A stretch of DNA of 64,000 nucleotides from Acidimicrobiia bacterium (GCA_027494165.1 JAOSJM010000005.1:62001-126000), one strand, 5' to 3'. Counted from the first letter of the stretch, positions 14,120 through 60,389 are shown. Made by a program: numbers and translations. Notes: a model not told the origin generated them from the sequence alone.

Positions 14120-15472
14120 TCAGTAGCGGGGCTCCTTCCAGCGGGGGGCGCCCCCCTCGCGCACGTGCTCGTCGAGGAGCTCGTCGGTGGCCTCCCAGTC
14201 GACGAGGGGGGTGCCCTCGGGCAGGCCCCACGGCCACTCGCCGTAGAGGGTCATGACGTGCTCGGGCGGCCGGCGCTCCGGCCAGCCCTCGATCCAGTCC
14301 CCGTACGGGCGGGCCCGGGCCAGGCGGGCCTCGCGCTCCTCCTTGCGGGCCAGCTCCGTGGCCTCGTGGTCGATGACCAGGTTGTCCTCCCGGTAGACCA
14401 CCTTGAAGACGTCGCGGGCCGTCCGGTGCGAGATCGTCTTCGACCGCAGGTCGTCCATCACCAGCTCGGCGTCACGCTCGAGGACGTCGCCGTACCCGGC
14501 CCCGGAGGGGGCGCAGGCGAGGAACAGGTCGCCCTCGACGAGCATCTCCATCCCCGAGTTCTGGTGCTTGAACATCCAGTCGCCCTCGATCCGCTCCACG
14601 GCCTCGTAGAGGTCGTGGGGGATCCGGTTCTGCGCCTTCAGCTCCTCGAGGTTGTGGTTCTGCACGAGCGCGAAGGCGACCGGACGGGAGGGGTACCCAC
14701 CCATGAGCCCGGGCGCCATGGGCCGGCCCGAGAAGCCGCCGATCGACACGGCGGCGACGCCGGGCACGCCGTGGATCTGGTACATGGCGTTCATCGAACG
14801 GCCGCCCCGGAACTTGCCGTAGCCCACCGCGTCCCGCCAGTAGACGTTCCGGTAGACGGGCAGCAGCGGGAACTGGTGCTCGATCTGCTCGGAGTCGAGG
14901 AACTCCCCGATCGCGCACCAGATGAACCCGCCCACGTCGATCCCGTCGGAATCCCAGCGGGCCCCCATCCCCACCCCGTTGGGGATCCCCTGGTCCCACG
15001 CCGAGAACGGCTGGCCGTGCGCGTCGACCCCGCCGACGGCCACCGTGTTCGAGGTCCCGGGCCAGCCGGCGACGACGTTGTCGTGCTCGGGCGACCCGAA
15101 CTTCATCTTCTCCATGCAGTTGTGCACGGCCGTGATCACCTGGGCGTGCGTCGCCACCCCGAGGGACGTGGCGTCCTCGGGGTCGGCCATGAAGAACGAC
15201 CCCTCCTGGAACTCGAAGCGGAACGGCTCGTAGTAGCCCGTGGTCGCCGGAAGCTCGTGGAACAGGTACTGGAACAGGTAGCAGGCGAACATCGCGATCT
15301 GCATGTGGGGGAACATGTTGAAGTTCCCCAGGAGCACGCGGGGGCTCCCGTAGTGACGGATCGTGCAGACCTCGCCCCGCTTCTCCACCTCGACCCGGCA
15401 GTTGATGAGCCCGTACTTCCCCTCGCCCGCGTTCTCCAGGAACACGTCCTGGCGGTAGATCCCGTCGTTCAT
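14120..15472 (-). CDS. Acetone-carboxylase-alpha-like / hydantoinase B family protein, C-terminal part
   Basis: A 450-residue piece of the HyuB/AcxB family. It opens with MNDGIYRQDVFLENAGEG, which corresponds to the middle of acetone carboxylase alpha (LPGTYRQVGFVDV region). Later it shows GGRSMNAMYQIHGVPG, GLMGGYPSRPVAFAL and GAGYGDVLERD, family features. It begins at an ATG overlapping the stop of the N-terminal part (ATGA at 15469-15472). In known enzymes the two parts are one chain, so either this is a natural split with coupled translation or one base is missing near 15475-15490; a single inserted base would join them into about 706 residues. Carboxylase partners (HyuA/AcxA, AcxC) are not in the window. 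Confidence 0.72.
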   Translation of the reverse strand: MNDGIYRQDVFLENAGEGKYGLINCRVEVEKRGEVCTIRHYGSPRVLLGNFNMFPHMQIAMFACYLFQYLFHELPATTGYYEPFRFEFQEGSFFMADPEDATSLGVATHAQVITAVHNCMEKMKFGSPEHDNVVAGWPGTSNTVAVGGVDAHGQPFSAWDQGIPNGVGMGARWDSDGIDVGGFIWCAIGEFLDSEQIEHQFPLLPVYRNVYWRDAVGYGKFRGGRSMNAMYQIHGVPGVAAVSIGGFSGRPMAPGLMGGYPSRPVAFALVQNHNLEELKAQNRIPHDLYEAVERIEGDWMFKHQNSGMEMLVEGDLFLACAPSGAGYGDVLERDAELVMDDLRSKTISHRTARDVFKVVYREDNLVIDHEATELARKEEREARLARARPYGDWIEGWPERRPPEHVMTLYGEWPWGLPEGTPLVDWEATDELLDEHVREGGAPRWKEPRY

Positions 15473-16239
15473 CGACGCCAGCTCTCGCGGGCCGCCGCCA
15501 CGCCCTCGTCGATCATCCGCCGCATCGACCCGATGAGGAAATCGACGCCCTTCTTGGCGATGATCTCGTGGCATCGGGTCTCGAGGATGTGGCACGCCGC
15601 GGCCCGGGCCTTGATGTCGAGGGTCTGCATCCGCGGGTCGCGGACCATGTTCTCCATCATCTCCATCATGTCGGCCCGCAACTGGTAGTTGATGCCGATC
15701 TTGATGGGCGACAGGATCATGCCCTCGTCGTAACGGCTCTGCGCCGAGGGAGGGTTGCCGCCCGGCTCCTTGGCCCCGGTCTCGGTCTCGTGGCTCGCGG
15801 CGGCCACCCAGGCCACGATCTCGCCCTCCCAGAACACCGGCATGAAGAGGATCTGGTCCGGGGAGTGGATCCCGCCGTAGAGCGCGTCGTTGGCGTAGAA
15901 CATGTCGCCCTCGTGGATGCCCACCGAGGGCTCCTCGTAGAACCAGCGCATCATCCACTTGATGCCGATCGAGGCGTTGATGAGGTGGAGCTGAGTCCCC
16001 ATGATCCCCACCGCCAGGTCCCCCTGGCGGGTGTAGATCCCGACGGCCGCGTCCCCGGCCTCGATCATGGGGCTGATCCCCATCCGGGAGAACGTCTGGT
16101 AGGCCTCCCAGCAGGACAGCTCCATCTTGTTGCGGTAGATCTCGAAGTCACCCCGCTCGACGCTCTCCATCGCCCGCAGCTCGCGGTTGGTGGCCGGCTC
16201 CGGACGCCAGTGCTTGAGCAGGTTCGGATCACGCGGCAC
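15469..16239 (-). CDS. Acetone-carboxylase-alpha-like / hydantoinase B family protein, N-terminal part
   Basis: A 256-residue piece with the N-terminal features of AcxB-like proteins: GDMFYANDALYGGIHSPDQI, MPVFWEGEIVAWVAAASHET and ETGAKEPGG. These align with the GNVHPCDIH, PIFWEGELIGWV and DTGAVGPG segments I recall for acetone carboxylase alpha. GTG 16239 is preferred over an upstream start because it follows a GGGGGGA ribosome site and keeps PRDPNLLKHWRPEP. Acetone carboxylase carboxylates ketones or activated phenols at ATP cost; the substrate here is unknown. Upstream neighbours on the same strand are an SDR and a FAD oxidoreductase, which could generate the ketone. Confidence 0.72.
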   Translation of the reverse strand: MPRDPNLLKHWRPEPATNRELRAMESVERGDFEIYRNKMELSCWEAYQTFSRMGISPMIEAGDAAVGIYTRQGDLAVGIMGTQLHLINASIGIKWMMRWFYEEPSVGIHEGDMFYANDALYGGIHSPDQILFMPVFWEGEIVAWVAAASHETETGAKEPGGNPPSAQSRYDEGMILSPIKIGINYQLRADMMEMMENMVRDPRMQTLDIKARAAACHILETRCHEIIAKKGVDFLIGSMRRMIDEGVAAARESWRR

Positions 16240-16365
16240 GGGTCCCCCCTTCGGTCCGCGAAGCTCCCCCGAGCTCCCCCGGCCGAGGCTAGGCGACCGG
16301 CGAGGCCCGCGGGCGTCACCCACCGCTCATCCTCTGCGGTCGCCCCGGTGGCCGGGCGCCGGCGG

Positions 16366-22546: not shown

Positions 22547-22562
22547 TCTACTATATAGTAGA
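22547..22562. promoter_or_regulatory. 16-bp perfect AT-rich palindrome upstream of the binding-protein gene
   Basis: TCTACTATATAGTAGA is a perfect inverted repeat, 23 bp upstream of the ATG at 22524. Such an AT-rich stretch is exceptional in this GC-rich window. It most likely is an operator overlapping a promoter. The TetR at 18877 is a candidate binder. Confidence 0.65.
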
Positions 22563-22636
22563 AACTCTGCGCGGAGTGTCGCGCTTCTCGCTCTCGAACG
22601 CAACCCCCGCCGGGTCCCGGCCCGGCGCCCCGCCCC

Positions 22637-24178
22637 TCAGGCCCGGCGCGTGCCCTCGGCCAGCCGCTCGCGCAGCTCGGCCTTGAGGACCTTGCCCATG
22701 GGGTTGGTCGGCAGGGCCTCGACGAAGTGCACCGCCTTGGGGACCTTCGGGCCGCCGAGCCGGTCCCGGCAGTGCTCGACGAGCTCCTCGGCGGTGATGG
22801 CCTCGTGCCCCGGGGCCCGGACGACCACGGCGGTGACCGCCTCGCCCCAGCGCTCGTGGGGCACGCCGACCACGGCCACCTGGCCGACGGCCGGGTGGCC
22901 TCCGAGGACCTCCTCCACCTCCCGGGAGGCCACGTTGGTGCCGCCGCTTATGATCACGTCCTTCGTGCGGTCGACGATCGTGAGGAAGCCGGCCCCGTCG
23001 ACGGTCGCCACGTCGCCGGTTCGGAACCACTCCCCGTCCCACGACGTCGCGTTCTCGGGCACGTCCCCCCAGTAGCGACGCACGACGTTCCCGCCCCGCA
23101 GCAGGATCTCCCCGAACTCGACCCCGTCGCGGGCGACCTCCGACCCGTCGTCGCGCACCACCCGGACCTCGACGCCCGCCGACGGCGTGCCTGCCGACAG
23201 GAGCCGTCCGGGCGGCTGGGCCGCCACCGGGTACATGTCGTCGGGACGCAGGACGCAGGCCACCGAGGTCGACTCGGTCATGCCGTACATGGGCCGGAAC
23301 ACCTCGCCGAAGGCCTCCACGGCCTCCTCGAGCAGGCGGCGCGGGACCGGCGCCGCGCCCACGATCACCCGCTTCAGCGACGACGTGTCGAAGCCCGCCC
23401 GGTCGGGGGTGGCGCAGCACGTCGTGGAGCATGGTCGGGACGAGGACCGTGTGGGTGACCCGGTGCTCCTCGATGGCGGCCAGGCAGGCGGCGGGCTCGA
23501 AGCGGGGCAGGAGCACGGTCCGGGCCGCCTCGGGCAGGGGGAAGAGCTGGCCGGGGCCGCCGGGCACGTTGGCCATGGGGTGCTGGATCAGGTAGGCGTC
23601 CCCGGTGGCGATGGGGATCTCGGCCACGAAGGAGAAGATGGCCGACGCGGCGCTCCGCTGCGTGATGACGGCCCCCTTGGGCCGGCCGGTGGTGCCGCTC
23701 GTCTGGCCGATCGTGAACGGGGCGTCGGGGTCGACGTCGTCGCGCAGCTCGCCTCCCCCGGCCACGACCTCCTCGTAGGGCTCACCGGCCGGGCCCCCGG
23801 GGAGGGCCACCACCGCGTCGCACCGGTCGAGCCAGCCGCCCAGGCACGCCTCCGAGCCGGGGCCGAGGAGGGCGCCGCGGGGCTGCACGTACTCGCCGAA
23901 GTAGCGGTCCAGCTCCGCCGGGTGCGACCGCGTGCTCGACGGGCTGACGACCAGGCCCGAGCCGGCCGCGGCGTAGAAGGACTCCAGGATCTCGGGGACG
24001 TTGTCGGAGACGAGCGCCACCCGGTCCCCCGGCGCCAGCCCCCGGCGCCGGAGCCCGCCGGCGAGCCCGGCCGCCCGCTCGGCCACCTCCCCCAGGTCCT
24101 CCGGTCGCCCGCCACCACCGCGACCCGGTCCCGGTGGTGGCGGGCGTTCACGAGCAGCATGCGGGCGATCATGGCCAC
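22637..24178 (-). CDS. AMP-forming acyl-CoA ligase (two one-base frame breaks)
   Basis: About 513 residues after repair. Start GTG 24178 (AMIARMLLVNARHHRDRVAVV) has GGAGGACGACC upstream. A break at 24101-24102 (one base missing) leads to EDLGEVAERAAGLAGGL. The P-loop is GQTSGTTGRPKGAVITQ. A second break in the five-G run 23405-23409 (one base extra) leads to GFDTSSLKRVIVGAAPVPRR. Then come FRPMYGMTESTSV, RTGDVATVDGAGFLTIVDRTKD and the lysine region NPMGKVLKAEL. The two errors compensate, so the end is in the starting frame. It lies at the 3' end of the dehydrogenase-crotonase operon that begins at 27719. Confidence 0.85.
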
Positions 24179-26559: not shown

Positions 26560-27719
26560 TCAGTAGGGGCCCGGGTCGCCCCGCTGCAGGTGCTTCACGA
26601 TGATGTTGCGCTGGATCTGGTTGGTCCCGCCCGCGATCTCGTTGAGCTTGGTCTCGCGCCAGAGCCGCTCCATGCCGTACTCGACCATGTACGAGTAGCC
26701 ACCGAGGATCTGCATGCCGCGGTTGGCGCACCGGGTGCCGATCTCGGACCCCGCCACCTTGGCCATCGACGCCTCCATGGAGCAGGGCAGGCCGTGCTCG
26801 AGCTTCCAGGCCGCCTTCCAGGTGAGCAGGCGGGCCATCTCGATCTCGATGGCCATGTCGGCGAGCATGTGCCCCACGGACTGGAACTCGACGATGGGCT
26901 GGTCGAACTGGACCCGGTCCTGCGCGTGGCGCAGCGCGAGGTCCAGGGCCCGCTGCCCGATGCCGCAGCCCTGGGCGCCGACGGTGATCCGCTCGGCGTC
27001 GAGCAGGCCGAAGATGATCTGGGTCCCGTGGTGGAGCTCGCCCACCAGGTTGGCGTGGGGACCCGGACGTCGTCCAGGAAGACCTCGCAGGTGTGGGTGC
27101 CCTGGCCGGCGAGCTTGCGCAGCGGCCGGATGGTGACACCCTCGGCGTCGGTGGGGACGAGCAGGACCGACAGGCCGCGGGGTCCACTGACGTCGGGGTC
27201 GGTCCGCACGAAGGTGAAGATGTACCCGGCCGTGTCGGCGCCGGTGGTGAAGATCTTCTGGCCCCGGATCACCCAGTCGTCGCCGTCGCGCGTCGCCCGG
27301 GTGGACAGGTGGCCCAGGTCGGATCCGGCGTCGGGCTCCGAGAGCCCCATCGCCACGCGCAGGCGACCGGCCGCGATCTCGGGCAGCAGCTCCTTCTTCT
27401 GCTCCTCGGTGCCGTAGCGGTTGATGCCCTTGGCGCAGAACGTCACCGTGGGGATGTAGGAGTAGACGATGCTGCCGCCCGCCCGGGCCACCTCCTCGGC
27501 GACGATGCAGATCGAGATCTCGTCGGCGGCGCTCCCGCCGTAGGTCTCGTCGATGGCGATGCCGCAGAGCCCGAGGTCGGCCATCTTGGCGTAGATCTCG
27601 GACGGGAAGCGCTCCTCCCGGTCGAGCTCGGCCACGACCTCGATCGGGGCCTCCTTCTCGAAGAACGCCCGGAGCGTGCGACGGAGCTCCTGGTGCTCCT
27701 CGGAGATCGTGAAGTCCAT
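26560..27719 (-). CDS. Acyl-CoA dehydrogenase (one-base frame break)
   Basis: About 386 residues. It has the acyl-CoA dehydrogenase layout: N-terminal helical domain (ISEEHQELRRTLRAFFEKEAP), FAD/acyl-binding middle (VAMGLSEPDAGSDLGHLSTRA, RGQKIFTTGADTAGY) and C-terminal helices (AQDRVQFDQPIVEFQSVGHM, ANRGMQILGGYSYMVEYGMER, GGTNQIQRNIIVKHL). The frame breaks at the four-G run 27057-27060 (one base missing), between FLDDVRVP and HANLVGELHHG. It introduces the alpha-beta double bond into an acyl-CoA and passes electrons to ETF. First gene of its operon, with the 15-bp operator 34 bp upstream of ATG 27719. Confidence 0.9.
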
Positions 27720-29355: not shown

Positions 29356-29850
29356 CTACGGCGCCGGATCCTCCCGGGCGGGACGGGCGGCGACGACCAT
29401 CACCCAGCGGCCGTCGGCGACCCGGACCCCGTCGTCCTTCACGATCTCGTAGTGGAACGTCACGACCCCGCGCGGCTTGCCGGGCCTGGGCTCGGTCTCC
29501 TCGACGGTCAGCTCGACGTGGATCGTGTCGCCGAAGCGGACCGGCTGGTGGTAGCGGATCGTCTGCTCCAGCATGGCCAGACCCGTCCCCGCGAAGAGGC
29601 CGAGGCGCTCCTTGAGCCCCGAGGCGATGGCCACCGCCATGAGGCCGGGCGGGAAGCGACCGCCGAAGAGGCCGTGCTCGGTGGCGTACACCTCGTCGAC
29701 GTGCATGGGGTTCATGTCACCGGTGAACATGGCCCAGAGCCCGCCGTCGACCTCGGTCACCGTGCGCCCCTGGGTCACGATCCGCTCGCCGGGCCGGAAG
29801 TCCTCGAAGTACCGGGCCCCGGGTCCGACCGGGCGGTGCGCGGGGGCCAT
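29356..29850 (-). CDS. MaoC-like hot-dog fold dehydratase
   Basis: A 164-residue protein with the MaoC pattern: ARYFEDFRPGERIVTQGRTV, then FTGDMNPMHVDEVYATEHGL with the Asp-x5-His hydratase motif, and RFPPGLMAVAIASGL. Family members hydrate enoyl-CoA, or dehydrate 3-hydroxyacyl-CoA. ATG 29850 overlaps the stop of the SDR (ATGA), so the SDR (dehydrogenase) and this hydratase are probably two consecutive steps of a beta-oxidation-like sequence. Confidence 0.88.
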   Translation of the reverse strand: MAPAHRPVGPGARYFEDFRPGERIVTQGRTVTEVDGGLWAMFTGDMNPMHVDEVYATEHGLFGGRFPPGLMAVAIASGLKERLGLFAGTGLAMLEQTIRYHQPVRFGDTIHVELTVEETEPRPGKPRGVVTFHYEIVKDDGVRVADGRWVMVVAARPAREDPAP

Positions 29851-30617
29851 CAGTAACCCATCCAGCCGCCGTCGATGGCCAGCGTGGTGCCGTCGACGTA
29901 GCCGGCGTCGTCGGAGAGCAGGAAGGCGATCCCGCCCACGAGCTCCGAGGGGTCGGCCGGGCGGCGCATCGGGATCCGCGGCCGCAGGCCACCGGGGTCG
30001 TCGTCGCCCTCGCCGCCCTCCAGGGAGGCGGCCATGTCGGTGCGCATCCAGCCCGGAGCGACGGCGTTCACCCGGATCCCGTGGCGGGCGAGGTCGGTGG
30101 CGGCCCCCCGGGTGAAGGCGAGGAGAGCCCCCTTCGAGGCCGCGTAGGCCGACAGGCCGGGCAGGGAGGCGACGTGGGCGGTGGTCGACGTGATGTTCAC
30201 CACCGAGCCCGGACGGCCCGCGGCGACGAGCCGGCGAGCGAGCTCCCGGGTGGCGATCATCGGCCCCATGGCGTTGATCCTCAGGATCCGGTCGATCTCC
30301 TCGTCGTCGAGGTCGAGGACCCGGGTCGACGACAGGATCCCGGCGTTGTTCACGAGCGCGTCGGCCGGTCCGCCCCACTCGGCCTCCACCGCGTCGAGGA
30401 CCGCCCGGACGCCTTCGGCGGTGGCGCAGTCTGCCTCCACGCCGAGCGCCGGGCCGAGCGCACCCACCTCGGCGGCGGCCCGTCGGACTCCCGGGCCGTC
30501 GAGGTCCGCGAGCGCCACCCGGGCACCCTCGCGGGCGAGGCCCTCGGCGACCGCCCGGCCCAGCCCCCGGGCGGCGCCGGTGACGACGGCCGTGCGACCC
30601 TCGAGACGTCCCTTCAT
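29850..30617 (-). CDS. Short-chain dehydrogenase/reductase (FabG-like)
   Basis: A 255-residue SDR with TGAARGLGRAVAEGLAREGA, NNAGILSSTRVLD, the catalytic set ITSTTAHVASLPGLSAYAASKGA (Ser, Tyr-x3-Lys intact) and GTTLAIDGGWMGY. It is a likely NAD(P)-dependent 3-hydroxyacyl-CoA dehydrogenase or related alcohol dehydrogenase. ATG 30617 overlaps the stop of the ligase (TGA 30614-30616). In the raw sequence a ligase frame appears to run on into this gene, but that is an artefact of an extra base at 30692-30695. Confidence 0.88.
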   Translation of the reverse strand: MKGRLEGRTAVVTGAARGLGRAVAEGLAREGARVALADLDGPGVRRAAAEVGALGPALGVEADCATAEGVRAVLDAVEAEWGGPADALVNNAGILSSTRVLDLDDEEIDRILRINAMGPMIATRELARRLVAAGRPGSVVNITSTTAHVASLPGLSAYAASKGALLAFTRGAATDLARHGIRVNAVAPGWMRTDMAASLEGGEGDDDPGGLRPRIPMRRPADPSELVGGIAFLLSDDAGYVDGTTLAIDGGWMGY

Positions 30618-32179
30618 CCGACCGGGCGCTCGTGGCCCGTCCAGTAGCGCTCCCGGAGCTCCTTCTTGAGGATCTTCCCGGTCCCGCCGACGGGGAAGCT
30701 CGTCCACGATCTCCAGCGACCGCGGCTTCTTGTAGTCGGCGAGGCGCTCGGCCGCGAAGGCCATCAGCTCCTCGGGCGTGGCCTCCTGGCCCGGCGCCGG
30801 CACCACCAGCGCGTGGATGGCCTCCCCCCACTTGTCGTGGGGCACCCCGATCACCGCGACCTGGCCCACCGCCGGGTGCCCGTACAGCGCCTTCTCCACC
30901 TCCACGCTGAACACGTTGATCCCGCCCGTGATGATCATGTCCTTGAGGCGGTCCACGATCGTCACGAACCCGTCCGGGTCCACCGTGGCCAGGTCCCCCG
31001 ACTTGAACCACTCCCCCGAGCGCGCCGCGACCGTCTCCTCGGGCATCCGGAAGTACTCCGGCGAGACGCTGTCACCGCGCATCCACACCTCGCCCCCGGT
31101 CGCGTCGTCCCGGGGGACGTCGACGCCGTGCTCGTCGACCACCCGCACCTGCATGAGCACGTGCGGCTTGCCCGCAGAGCCCAGCCGCCGGACCTGCTCC
31201 TCGGTGCCCTCGGTGTGCTGGTCCTCCCGGCGCAGGTGCATGCCGACCGAGTAGGTCTCGGCCATCCCGTACATCGGGAAGAAGACGTCACCGATGATCT
31301 GCTTCCCGCGCTCGAGCATCTCGCGGGGGATGGGGGATCCACCGCAACCGATGGCCATGATCGACGAGAGGTCGTGCTGCTCGCACTCGGGGTGGGCCAG
31401 CACCATCCCGATCATGGTCGGCACGAGGATCGAGTGGGTCACCCGGTACTCGGGCACCGCCCGCAGGAAGCTCCCCGGCTCGAAGGCCGGGAAGATCACG
31501 GTCCGGCCCCCCTTCAACAGCACCGGGTGCAGGCCCGAGACCCCGCCGGGGTTGAAGAACAGGGGGATGTTCTGGAGGTTCGTGCCTTCGGGCGGCACCG
31601 GCATCTCGACGGCCCAGCAGAGGATCCCCGCCATGGCGTTGGCGTGGGTGAGGACCGCACCCTTGGGGATCCCCGTCGTGCCGCTCGTCGCCCCGAGCTG
31701 GTACGTGTCGGTGTCGTCGACCGCACACCCCGGATCGCCGCCCTCCTGGGCCTCCACCAACCCCGCGTAGTCCAGGTCGAACCCGTGGCCCTCCCCCACA
31801 CCGATCACGTGACGGATCGACGGCACCTCGGCCACCCAACCCGCCTGACCCACCAGGTCCGCGTGGACCAGGATCGCCGAGGGCTCCACGTAGTTCAGGT
31901 ACGACACCAGCTCCGCCGGCGCCAGACGGATGTTCGTCGTCGACCCGATCACCCCCGACTTCGCGCACCCGAAGAAGAACTCGATGTACTCACCGCAGTT
32001 CGGCGCGTACGTCGCCACCCGATCGCCCTTGCCCAACCCCAGACCCAGGAACGCCCGGGCCAGCTGGTTCGTCCGCTCCTCCAACCCCGCCCACGTGAGA
32101 CTCCCCCACCCGGGACCACCACCGCCTCCCGGTCGCCGTAGAAGTCGGCGTTGCGGCGCACGATGTCGCTGATCAGCAT
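30614..32179 (-). CDS. AMP-forming acyl-CoA ligase, duplicate A (two one-base frame breaks)
   Basis: About 521 residues. It is a tandem paralogue of the ligase at 32252-33814. The direct comparison shows two indels: one C missing at 32109-32111 (VVVPGGG then SLTWAG) and one G too many at 30692-30695, before GGTGKILKKELRERYW. P-loop YQLGATSGTTGIPKGAVLTH and hinge SGDLATVDPDGFVTIVDRLKD are identical to duplicate B. Residues differing from B cluster in the substrate region: NAMAGILCWAVEMP, IGCGGSPIPREMLERGKQII, YGMAETYSVGMH. So A and B should activate different acids. An operator copy sits 31 bp before ATG 32179. Confidence 0.88.
30620..31064. repeat. Near-identical duplicated block: 3' end of ligase A
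   Basis: This 445-bp block matches 32255-32698 (444 bp). By eye I find only one substitution (G for A near 30949) and the extra G at 30692-30695. Synonymous positions are also identical, so the copies exchanged sequence recently. Confidence 0.85.
31644..32179. repeat. Near-identical duplicated block: 5' end of ligase A
   Basis: It matches 33278-33814. The differences seen are one missing C plus an adjacent substitution at 32108-32111 and one substitution near the start codon. The 579 bp between the two blocks (31065-31643) are clearly diverged from 32699-33277, though equal in length. Confidence 0.85.
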
Positions 32180-32210
32180 GACCTCTCCCGCGAGGCTGAT
32201 CCGACCGATC

Positions 32211-32225
32211 TCACGTTCAACGTTA
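32211..32225 (-). promoter_or_regulatory. 15-bp operator-like palindrome, copy 2 (upstream of ligase A)
   Basis: Plus strand TCACGTTCAACGTTA, minus strand TAACGTTGAACGTGA. It lies 31 bp before ATG 32179, the same spacing as copy 3 to ligase B. Confidence 0.68.
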
Positions 32226-32251
32226 TATGACACACTTCACGGCGCCTCGCC

Positions 32252-33814
32252 TCAGACCGGGCGCTCGTGGCCCGTCCAGTAGCGCTCCCGGAGCTCCTTC
32301 TTGAGGATCTTCCCGGTCCCGCCGACGGGAAGCTCGTCCACGATCTCCAGCGACCGCGGCTTCTTGTAGTCGGCGAGGCGCTCGGCCGCGAAGGCCATCA
32401 GCTCCTCGGGCGTGGCCTCCTGGCCCGGCGCCGGCACCACCAGCGCGTGGATGGCCTCCCCCCACTTGTCGTGGGGCACCCCGATCACCGCGACCTGGCC
32501 CACCGCCGGGTGCCCGTACAGCGCCTTCTCCACCTCCACGCTGAACACGTTGATCCCGCCCGTGATGATCATGTCCTTGAGACGGTCCACGATCGTCACG
32601 AACCCGTCCGGGTCCACCGTGGCCAGGTCCCCCGACTTGAACCACTCCCCCGAGCGCGCCGCGACCGTCTCCTCGGGCATCCGGAAGTACTCCGGCGACA
32701 GGGTGTCTCCCTTGAGCCAGACCTCACCGGCCGTCGCGTTGTCCCGGGGGACGTCGACGCCGTGCTCGTCGACCACCCGCACCTGGTTGAGGACCATGGG
32801 CTTGCCCGCGGAGCCCAGCCGCCGGACCTGCTCCTCGGTGCCCTCGGTGTGCTGGTCCTCCCGGCGCAGGATGAGCCCGGACGAGTAGCTCTCGGCCATC
32901 CCGTACATCGGGAAGAAGACGTCGCCGAACACCTCGCGGGCCCTCGCCAGCACCTCCCTCGGCAGCGGCGAGCCGCCGATGCTCACCGCCATGATCGAGG
33001 AGAGGTCGTGCTGCTCGCACTCGGGGTGGGCCAGCACCATCCCGACCATGGTCGGCACGAGGATCGAGTGGGTCACCCGGTACTCGGGCACCGCCCGCAG
33101 GAAGTTCCCCGGCTCGAAGGCCGGGAAGATCACGGTCCGGCCCCCCTTCATCAGCACCGGGTGCATCCCGGCCGGGCCGCCGGGGTTGAAGAACAGGGGG
33201 ATGTTCTGGAGGTTCGTGCCCTCGGGCGGGTAGGGCATGTCGGCCATCCAGTTGAGCATGGCGGCGATGGCGTTGCGGTGGGTGAGGACCGCACCCTTGG
33301 GGATCCCCGTCGTGCCGCTCGTCGCCCCGAGCTGGTACGTGTCGGTGTCGTCGACCGCACACCCCGGATCGCCGCCCTCCTGGGCCTCCACCAACCCCGC
33401 GTAGTCCAGGTCGAACCCGTGGCCCTCCCCCACACCGATCACGTGACGGATCGACGGCACCTCGGCCACCCAACCCGCCTGACCCACCAGGTCCGCGTGG
33501 ACCAGGATCGCCGAGGGCTCCACGTAGTTCAGGTACGACACCAGCTCCGCCGGCGCCAGACGGATGTTCGTCGTCGACCCGATCACCCCCGACTTCGCGC
33601 ACCCGAAGAAGAACTCGATGTACTCACCGCAGTTCGGCGCGTACGTCGCCACCCGATCGCCCTTGCCCAACCCCAGACCCAGGAACGCCCGGGCCAGCTG
33701 GTTCGTCCGCTCCTCCAACCCCGCCCACGTGAGACTCCCCCGCCCCGGGACCACCACCGCCTCCCGGTCGCCGTAGAAGTCGGCGTTGCGGCGCACGATG
33801 TCGCTGACCAGCAT
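32252..33814 (-). CDS. AMP-forming acyl-CoA ligase, duplicate B
   Basis: An intact 520-residue ligase and reference for its copy A. It starts MLVSDIVRRNADFYGDREAV and shows ATSGTTGIPKGAVLTH, FPMYGMAESYSSGL, SGDLATVDPDGFVTIVDRLKD and GGTGKILKKELRERYW. It has substrate-region residues different from A (NAIAAMLNWMADMP, VSIGGSPLPREVLARAREVF), while the first about 160 and last about 145 residues are the same. ATG 33814 has an operator copy 31 bp upstream, and the stop lies 73 bp before the next start, so each copy can be transcribed on its own. Confidence 0.92.
   Translation of the reverse strand: MLVSDIVRRNADFYGDREAVVVPGRGSLTWAGLEERTNQLARAFLGLGLGKGDRVATYAPNCGEYIEFFFGCAKSGVIGSTTNIRLAPAELVSYLNYVEPSAILVHADLVGQAGWVAEVPSIRHVIGVGEGHGFDLDYAGLVEAQEGGDPGCAVDDTDTYQLGATSGTTGIPKGAVLTHRNAIAAMLNWMADMPYPPEGTNLQNIPLFFNPGGPAGMHPVLMKGGRTVIFPAFEPGNFLRAVPEYRVTHSILVPTMVGMVLAHPECEQHDLSSIMAVSIGGSPLPREVLARAREVFGDVFFPMYGMAESYSSGLILRREDQHTEGTEEQVRRLGSAGKPMVLNQVRVVDEHGVDVPRDNATAGEVWLKGDTLSPEYFRMPEETVAARSGEWFKSGDLATVDPDGFVTIVDRLKDMIITGGINVFSVEVEKALYGHPAVGQVAVIGVPHDKWGEAIHALVVPAPGQEATPEELMAFAAERLADYKKPRSLEIVDELPVGGTGKILKKELRERYWTGHERPV
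32255..32698. repeat. Near-identical duplicated block: 3' end of ligase B
   Basis: Partner of 30620-31064. It ends abruptly at the shared TACTCCGGCGA, after which the two ligase genes diverge at many codons. Confidence 0.85.
33278..33814. repeat. Near-identical duplicated block: 5' end of ligase B
   Basis: Partner of 31644-32179. It begins at the shared GTGGGTGAGGACC beside the P-loop codons, which places the break of identity just after the AVLTH motif. Confidence 0.85.
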
Positions 33815-33845: not shown

Positions 33846-33860
33846 TTTCGTCTTACGTTA
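33846..33860 (-). promoter_or_regulatory. 15-bp operator-like palindrome, copy 3 (upstream of ligase B)
   Basis: Plus strand TTTCGTCTTACGTTA, the weakest match to the consensus: one half (TACGTTA) is good, the other has two changes. Spacing of 31 bp to ATG 33814 equals that of copy 2. Confidence 0.5.
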
Positions 33861-40345: not shown

Positions 40346-41185
40346 GTGACCGACACGACCACGAGCACCGCCGAGGACCGGGAAGCGTCCGACCGGAGCC
40401 CCGTGCTGCTCGAGACCCGCGGCCTCGAGGTCGTCTACCAGGACGTCATCCAGGCCCTCCGCGGCGTGTCGATCCAGGTGCCCCACGGCGCGATCGTCGC
40501 CATGCTCGGCCCGAACGGGGCCGGCAAGACCACCACCCTGCGAGCGGTGACCGGGCTCCTCGACTTCCACAAGGGCCGGATCGCCAAGGGCTCGGTCCAC
40601 TTCGACGGCGAGGACGTGAGCACCGCGTCGGCCGCCCGCCTCGTCTCCGGCGGGATCGCCCAGGTCCTCGAGGGCCGGCGGATCTTCCCCACCCTGACCG
40701 TCGACGAGAACCTGAAGGTCGGCACGGGGGGCCGGCGGCGGCCCGACGCCCTCGAGAAGGTCTGGGACCTCTTCCCCGTGCTCGCCGAGCGGCGGCAGCA
40801 GCCCGGCGGTTACCTCTCCGGGGGCGAGCAGCAGATGCTGGCCATGGCCCGCGCGCTGGTCTCCGACCCCCGCCTGCTCGTGCTCGACGAGCCGTCGCTC
40901 GGGCTGGCGCCCAAGCTGGTCGACGTCGTGGCCGACCTCATCACGCGCATCAACGAGCTCGGCACGACGGTGCTGCTCGTGGAGCAGAACGCGGCCGTCG
41001 CGCTCGACATCTCCCACCACGGCTACGTGGTCGAGAACGGCCGCATCGTGATGGACGCGCCGAGCGCCGAGCTCCGCCGCAACGAGGACATCCTCGAGTT
41101 CTACCTGGGCGTCAAGGAGGGAGGTGAGCGACGCAGCTATGCCGACGTCAAGCACTACCGGCGCCGCAAGCGGTGGCTCTCCTGA
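40346..41185 (+). CDS. livF: Branched-chain amino acid-type ABC ATPase, LivF family
   Basis: A 279-residue ATPase with Walker A GPNGAGKTTT, VLEGRRIFPTLTVDENL, signature YLSGGEQQMLAMARAL, Walker B LLVLDEPSLGLAPK and H-loop LLVEQNAAVAL, the LivF set. It has an extra N-terminal tail (about 20 residues) and a basic C-terminal tail (RSYADVKHYRRRKRWLS). GTG 40346. Its partner permeases lie divergently at 36161-38222. The end overlaps livG. Confidence 0.92.
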   Translation: MTDTTTSTAEDREASDRSPVLLETRGLEVVYQDVIQALRGVSIQVPHGAIVAMLGPNGAGKTTTLRAVTGLLDFHKGRIAKGSVHFDGEDVSTASAARLVSGGIAQVLEGRRIFPTLTVDENLKVGTGGRRRPDALEKVWDLFPVLAERRQQPGGYLSGGEQQMLAMARALVSDPRLLVLDEPSLGLAPKLVDVVADLITRINELGTTVLLVEQNAAVALDISHHGYVVENGRIVMDAPSAELRRNEDILEFYLGVKEGGERRSYADVKHYRRRKRWLS

Positions 41186-41979
41186 GGCCGCGCCCCTGCT
41201 CGAGGTCCGCGAGCTGACCCTCCGCTTCGGAGGGCTCACGGCCCTGCACGACGTCACGTTCTCGGTGCGCCGGGGCGAGCTCCTCGCGATCCTCCGGACC
41301 CAACGGGGCCGGCAAGTCGTCCCTGTTCAACTGCGTCAACGGCGTCTACCGGCCCCAGGAGGGGACGGTGCTCCTCGACGGGGTCGACATCACCCGGTGG
41401 TCGCCGCACCGGCGGGCCCACGCCGGGCTCGCCCGCACGTTCCAGAACCTGGCCCTGTTCGAGGAGATGTCGGTCCTCGGCAACCTCATGGCCGCCCGGA
41501 ACCATCTCATGAAGCGGGGCTCGCTGGCCGGGCTGCTGTGGATCGGGCCCACCCGGCGCGAGGAGCTGGCCCACCGGGCCCGGGTGGAGGAGATCATCGA
41601 GTTCCTGGACCTGGCGGCCATGCGCCACGCCCCGGTGGCGTCGCTCCCCTACGGGTGGCGCAAGCGCGTCGAGCTGGGGCGGGCCCTCTGCATGGAGCCC
41701 CGGGTCGTGCTGCTCGACGAGCCGGTGGCGGGGATGAACCAGGAGGAGACCGAGGACATCGCCCGGTACCTGCTCGACCTGCGCGACCAGTGGGGTCTGA
41801 CCCAGGTGCTGGTCGAGCACAACCTCGGCGTCGTCATGGACATCGCCGACCGGGTCGTCGTGCTCGACTTCGGCGAGGTCATCGCCGACGGGACCCCCGG
41901 CGAGGTGGAGAAGGATCCGGCGGTGATCGCCGCCTACCTGGGCGAGCGCCACCGCGAGCGCCTCGGCTCGGGAACCTGA
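41124..41979 (+). CDS. livG: Branched-chain amino acid-type ABC ATPase, LivG family (one-base frame break)
   Basis: About 279-284 residues. The start is GTG 41124 or ATG 41139 (GGAGG upstream), both inside livF. LEVRELTLRFGGLTALHDVT leads to the P-loop, where the frame breaks at 41294-41295 (one extra C); corrected it reads AILGPNGAGKSSLFNCVNGV. Then LARTFQNLALFEEMSVLGNL, signature-like SLPYGWRKRVELGRAL (degenerate, as often in LivG), Walker B VVLLDEPVAGMN and VLVEHNLGVVMDIADRVVVL. It completes the importer with LivF, LivH, LivM and the binding protein. Confidence 0.9.
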
Positions 41980-60319: not shown

Positions 60320-60374
60320 GACGCGGGGAGTGCGCGGCCCGCGTTGACGGTCCGCGATCCCGGACCGTAAGATT

Positions 60375-60389
60375 TAACGTTGAACGGCA
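60375..60389 (+). promoter_or_regulatory. 15-bp operator-like palindrome, copy 7 (upstream of mutase operon)
   Basis: TAACGTTGAACGGCA, 54 bp before ATG 60444. A GTAAGAT-type sequence just before it could be part of a promoter. Confidence 0.62.

Follow-up and report, generated by a model that had tools for sequence, protein, structure and literature searches.

The tandem acyl-CoA ligase locus

The window analysed in this work is a 64,000-nucleotide stretch of an Acidimicrobiia bacterium (GCA_027494165.1, JAOSJM010000005.1:62001-126000), and its subject here is a tandem pair of acyl-CoA ligase genes on the minus strand. In the direction of transcription copy 2 comes first (32252..33814), with an intact frame of 520 aa, and is followed by copy 1 (30614..32179), which has the same length but whose frame is broken by two 1-nt indels as assembled. 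Where copy 2 ends, a 72-bp spacer leads straight to copy 1 with its operator-like site and start, and the stop codon of copy 1 overlaps the start of a short-chain dehydrogenase (SDR) gene. The operator-like element is a 15-bp near-palindrome, TNACGT-N3-ACGTNA, that begins exactly 32 nt from the ATG of each copy, as TAACGTTGAACGTGA for copy 1 (32211..32225, minus strand) and as TAACGTAAGACGAAA for copy 2 (33846..33860, minus strand). A first-pass annotation of this DNA had described an operator of its own for each copy at equal spacing, and we did find an operator-like site at each, with the qualification that the site of copy 2 is degenerate and weaker, having three mismatches to the consensus.

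Both copies carry AMP-binding and AMP-binding_C domains, which together with the ANL fold place the pair among the ANL acyl-CoA ligases. Neither copy could be assigned to a named equivalog of known substrate, as the 25 top-ranking NCBIfam ligase models listed all stayed below their cut-offs. No polyketide synthase domain was found among the genes scanned around the ligases, which are AMP-binding enzymes and not an assembly-line polyketide synthase. The AlphaFold2 model of copy 2 was good (mean predicted local distance difference test, pLDDT, 88.5); the nearest solved structure by E-value was feruloyl-CoA synthetase (8wev), and 4-coumarate:CoA ligase (4CL; 5bst) was near by overall fold.

Mosaic of identity and divergence between the copies

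When the two genes were aligned, 98 of 1563 positions differed, and these differences were distributed very unevenly. Three lie in the first 73 bp and are followed by 464 identical bp (33278..33741 in copy 2 and 31644..32107 in copy 1, minus strand), after which 94 fall within 579 bp; the remaining 445-bp 3' tract (32254..32698 and 30620..31064, minus strand) contains one silent change and one base inserted in copy 1. The near base-for-base match of the ends that had been reported earlier is therefore real, and the divergent centre does differ at about 40 residues, including the quoted motifs (IGCGGSPIP against VSIGGSPLP, and AETYSVG against AESYSSG). The longest identical runs are 154 and 109 codons, whereas no run exceeded 90 in 20,000 trials in which the 67 differing codons were distributed randomly.

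The centre had been described as one block, but it resolves into six islands parted by stretches without silent change. On the minus strand, these are island 1 (codons 180-198; copy 2 33221..33277, copy 1 31587-31643), in the helix after the P-loop; island 2 (codons 213-222; 33149..33178 and 31515-31544), in a helix expected to line the acyl pocket; island 3 (codons 272-297; 32924..33001 and 31290-31367), covering a strand, the GGSPLP loop and the next helix; island 4 (codons 309-315; 32870..32890 and 31236-31256), in the loop after YGMAE; island 5 (codons 335-343; 32786..32812 and 31152-31178); and island 6 (codons 359-372; 32699..32740 and 31065-31106). Within them, the synonymous divergence (dS) between the copies is 1.07 and thus saturated, the nonsynonymous divergence (dN) is 0.36, and dN/dS is about 0.34. 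Of the comparable four-fold sites in the islands, 21 of 34 differ, which is about the same as against L012, the nearest relative found, a metagenome-assembled genome labelled Nitriliruptoraceae (SKJX01000130.1; 73% identity). Between the islands dS is 0 and no four-fold site differs (0/59), while in the ends dS is 0 (5') and 0.009 (3'), with a difference at 1 of 189 four-fold sites. Silent differences thus number zero over about 217 synonymous sites of the 5' end and the inter-island stretches, and one over about 109 in the 3' end. The check proposed in the first-pass annotation, a comparison of silent and replacement differences along the aligned genes, accordingly gave differences concentrated in the islands and almost none elsewhere.

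The island borders were drawn post hoc from the data themselves. The island pattern also emerges from a test independent of these borders: of the 24 silent changes in the centre, 21 are no more than two codons away from a replacement, where 9.1 were expected and 0 of 20,000 shuffles matched this clustering. Constraint on silent sites as the source of the identity was ruled out, since more than half of the four-fold sites concerned differ between copy 2 and L012 (29/50 between the islands and 36/69 in the 5' end); the inter-island stretches are therefore free to change at silent sites. The mosaic is most simply read as recombination between the copies.

The same contig also holds, inside roughly 90 kb, three copies of a hydantoinase B-type region with 82-88% DNA identity (window 14122-16250; L016:8349-10410; L017:10513-12642). 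Divergence among these copies is smooth and not mosaic. They were rejected as an equal example, with identical runs of 95 bp at most.

Islands and the acyl pocket

On the model, islands 1 to 4 correspond to helix 179-192, helix 211-222, strand 276-280 with helix 286-296, and loop 309-315, respectively. The elements that carry them are ones that we take to line the acyl pocket in the ANL fold, and the four islands are accordingly expected, on this predicted structure, to lie at the pocket. A motif-based alignment places position 215, where copy 2 has A and copy 1 has S, at Ala243 of a plant 4CL, and position 278 (S/G) at Met306. For that enzyme, a complete loss of activity was reported with the A243S exchange, and M306A eliminated activity towards two substrates (PMC5239791). 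Of the eight pocket positions given in that study, two differ between the copies, which is not significant alone. No published pocket residues of 8wev were found. From the sequences, we infer that the two enzymes may differ in substrate, and the pair may, as the first-pass annotation proposed, broaden the substrate range.

Age of the duplication and relatives

The DNA upstream of the two ATGs has diverged, and only the operator-like site and the final bases ahead of the ATG are shared; the duplication is thus not a recent one, despite the identity of the coding sequences. L012 has a single ligase, whose neighbours belong to the same gene families and stand in a similar order. Of the 40 differing residues, 22 in copy 2 and 7 in copy 1 match L012, and at 11 neither copy does. 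Residues that agree with both outgroups occur in copy 1 (E192, L217, R368 and V372) as well as in copy 2 (R180, P214 and A215), indicating that both copies have changed. In the islands copy 1 is 55% and copy 2 is 69% identical to L012, and the branch of copy 1 is 2.6 times as long as that of copy 2. Over the ends, the copies are 99-100% identical to each other and 65-77% identical to L012, and alternative trees were rejected (approximately unbiased, AU, test, p <0.001); for the whole centre, alternatives to the copies as sisters have AU p values of about 0.02.

Beyond L012 and G027, no further strong match was found in the order (57 other genomes) or in the class and phylum samples (395 and 397 genomes), nor among the 222 genomes of the family of G027; the family of the present bacterium is represented by its own genome only. 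Within that genome, the best other match to the ligases has 74% DNA identity.

Explanations for the mosaic

We consider it probable that the ligases are old tandem duplicates in concerted evolution, with the pocket islands shielded from conversion. An old pair would have evolved in concert: short-tract gene conversion would have recurred until very recently and homogenised nearly the whole coding sequence. Conversions over the six islands would not have been retained, most likely since each copy depends on a pocket of its own; copy 2 would have kept a mostly ancestral pocket, copy 1 would be changing faster, and each copy would have retained its own operator-like site. The first-pass annotation had proposed conversion of the ends with kept diversity in the pocket. 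The contrast between near-zero dS and dS of about 1.07 supports the general idea, but conversion of the two ends alone is not sufficient, because the pattern of tracts requires several short conversion tracts. Gene conversion would be the mechanism, and selection would be the reason why the islands have persisted.

The following observations weigh against this explanation. The frame of copy 1 is broken at both ends as assembled; islands 5 and 6 are strands further along the protein and not obviously at the pocket; the tree of the islands only favours the copies as sisters, but not significantly (AU 0.88 versus 0.12-0.20); and among the genomes searched no close relative with a ligase pair was found that would date the duplication or the conversions.

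As to the frame, copy 1 lacks one base relative to copy 2 at 32107..32111 (minus strand), which shifts the frame near codon 23, and has an extra C in a C-run at 30692..30695 (minus strand), which shifts it near codon 495 and lets it run into the SDR gene. Both indels adjoin homopolymers. Other conserved genes in the window appear frameshifted as well, namely an acyl-CoA dehydrogenase (26560-27719), another ligase (22551-24178), a LivG-like ATPase (41124-41979) and hydantoinase B (14120-16323), which suggests an indel-prone assembly. Because these genes are similarly broken, 470 codons of copy 1 are open and dN/dS in the islands is about 0.34, the two indels are probably sequencing errors, and copy 1 would be intact in the cell. 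The extra base also creates a 744-aa open reading frame (window 29850-32084) that resembles a ligase-SDR fusion; this is an artefact, and the ligase and the SDR are two distinct genes whose stop and start overlap, as they do in L012. If the indels were real, copy 1 could be a decaying pseudogene whose pocket changes come from relaxed constraint, with which its two frameshifts and longer branch agree. We regard this as quite unlikely, since 470 of its codons are open, dN/dS in the islands is about 0.34, the indels lie at homopolymers in a window where other conserved genes are broken likewise, and relaxed constraint would not account for the identity outside the islands.

The missing significance for sister islands leaves room for a different history, in which a younger or fully homogenised duplicate later acquired the islands of copy 1 by short recombination with a diverged homologue, either the ortholog of another lineage or a lost paralog. 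The lower identity of these islands to L012 and the longer branch would fit such an import, and the island tree is compatible with an older origin. However, several separate short imports into matching positions would be required, no donor was found in the genome itself, where the best other match is the one at 74%, or in the relatives searched, the upstream DNA of the copies has already diverged, and copy 1 retains ancestral residues that copy 2 has lost; we therefore think this history unlikely, although it deserves some weight. It is very improbable that the alleles of two strains were joined into a false tandem, even though this is a draft assembly with 85.9% completeness and 5.2% contamination, and the indels are of the homopolymer type. 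The spacer joins the 3' end of copy 2 directly to the operator-like site and start of copy 1, so that any real molecule has the tail of a second copy ahead of copy 1, the pair sits on a 1.5-Mb contig, and the ends still differ at a few positions; moreover, alleles of different strains would not show silent-site saturation in patches of 20-80 bp together with identity between the patches. Hypermutation localised to the pocket of one recent copy would account for the tight limitation of the differences to the islands, but both copies carry derived residues relative to the two outgroups, dN/dS is about 0.34 and the silent sites have diverged as much as against another class, so we rejected it as hardly credible. 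The explanation that we favour remains concerted evolution of an old pair with shielded pocket islands.

Silent-site composition of the ends

The first-pass annotation had mentioned neither the two indels of copy 1 nor the single ligase of L012, and it had also passed over an unusual composition of silent sites in the ends. The coding-strand GC skew is about +0.2 to +0.3 over much of the identical ends and near zero in the middle of the centre and in L012. At third positions, the skew is +0.33 for codons 25-150 and +0.24 for codons 373-495, against a background mean of -0.15 (standard deviation 0.14) in 4381 coding-like blocks from the window and a 400-kb sample of stretches from the same genome, less than 1% of which reach +0.24. 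Relative to L012, C->G changes outnumber G->C changes at the four-fold sites of the ends by 37 to 9, while codons 151-372 have 20 C->G and 24 G->C changes (Fisher p 0.0009). The identical ends have thus been recoded toward G-ending codons and the centre and the relatives have not; L012 prefers C-ending codons where the pair uses G-ending ones. In both copies, most of the 464-bp 5' tract is skewed with G-ending codons, and the 3' tract is GC-skewed. As the skew was noticed after viewing the sequence, its statistics are post hoc. The skewed and the identical segments do not coincide, in that codons 151-179 and the inter-island stretches are identical yet unskewed.

This composition resembles that of genetic repeats of intense nucleotide skews (GRINS), which are described from polyketide synthases and linked there to gene conversion (PMC10394414). 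The published GRINS procedure (PMC9899208) calls for at least 500 bp with >80% identity elsewhere and a mean absolute GC and TA skew >0.15. The ligase copies reach this identity, and the GC skew is 0.15-0.29 at both ends of both copies, while the TA-skew threshold is reached over part of the 5' ends and not at the 3' ends. In the 5' ends, several hundred bp therefore reach all three thresholds, whereas the 3' ends pass for identity and GC skew only. Of the coding-like blocks in the sample, the one with the highest GC skew at third positions (+0.65) is L022:376-1125 (G000:C1:900376-901125). We discounted this block as an equal example, since the gene is of low complexity, internally repeated and rich in Ala, Glu and Arg.

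Distribution of the operator-like sites

With up to three mismatches, seven near-palindrome sites occur in the window (27754, 32211, 33846, 40245, 43495 and 60368-60375), compared with 0.17 expected. Elsewhere, sites were found at L016:18830, at L017:8001, 8062, 17171, 17239 and 17774, and at L012:7050, the last being the one operator-like site in the similar cluster of that genome. Sites with at most two mismatches were confined, within a 464-kb sample, to the window and its two 20-kb flanks (C5:42-146 kb), and none was present in the 18 other 20-kb stretches of the sample. From its distribution, the near-palindrome looks like the mark of a local regulon of roughly 80 kb on contig C5.

Comparison with known systems

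The ligases share fold and domains with the ANL ligases 8wev and 5bst, but identity is just 36% and 26%, respectively. The single ligase of L012 is closer, at the 73% identity given above, with enoyl-CoA hydratase and SDR neighbours and one operator-like site nearby; unlike the pair, it is present in one copy and has a C-ending preference in the regions that are G-ending here.

As expected for converted paralogs, some tracts show almost no silent divergence between the copies and others show much, and in the converted tracts the paralogs are closer to each other than to orthologs. Concerted evolution with protected pocket islands is a known kind of process, with an animal precedent in the Tigriopus GOT1 paralogs, in which divergence islands persist against gene conversion (PMC3728101); PMC2720389 describes concerted evolution of gene pairs. 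The ligases resemble these cases in being converted paralogs with islands that point to selection for new functions. They differ in that those are animal genes, and here a pair of bacterial tandem enzymes carries six islands of 20-80 bp whose silent sites are saturated. Such fine, silent-saturated islands are unusual for a bacterial enzyme pair, and so is the GRINS-like recoding of the converted ends. If selection has kept the islands, the pair would be a natural chimera experiment that marks the probable specificity parts of an acyl-CoA ligase at a resolution of 20-80 bp.

The likeness to GRINS (PMC10394414, PMC9899208) lies in near-identical repeated coding DNA, strong GC skew, silent recoding and the link to conversion; the differences are that the ligase pair is not a polyketide synthase, that its 3' ends lack TA skew and that part of the identical sequence is unskewed. 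We speculate, very tentatively and with the odds against it, that a GRINS-type process operates outside polyketide synthases, in which recoded ends serve as conversion handles and a short pocket cassette diverges, and that this may be a general bacterial way to diversify tandem enzymes. GRINS-like recoding in a simple system of two genes would make the link between skew and conversion testable outside the giant polyketide synthase genes.

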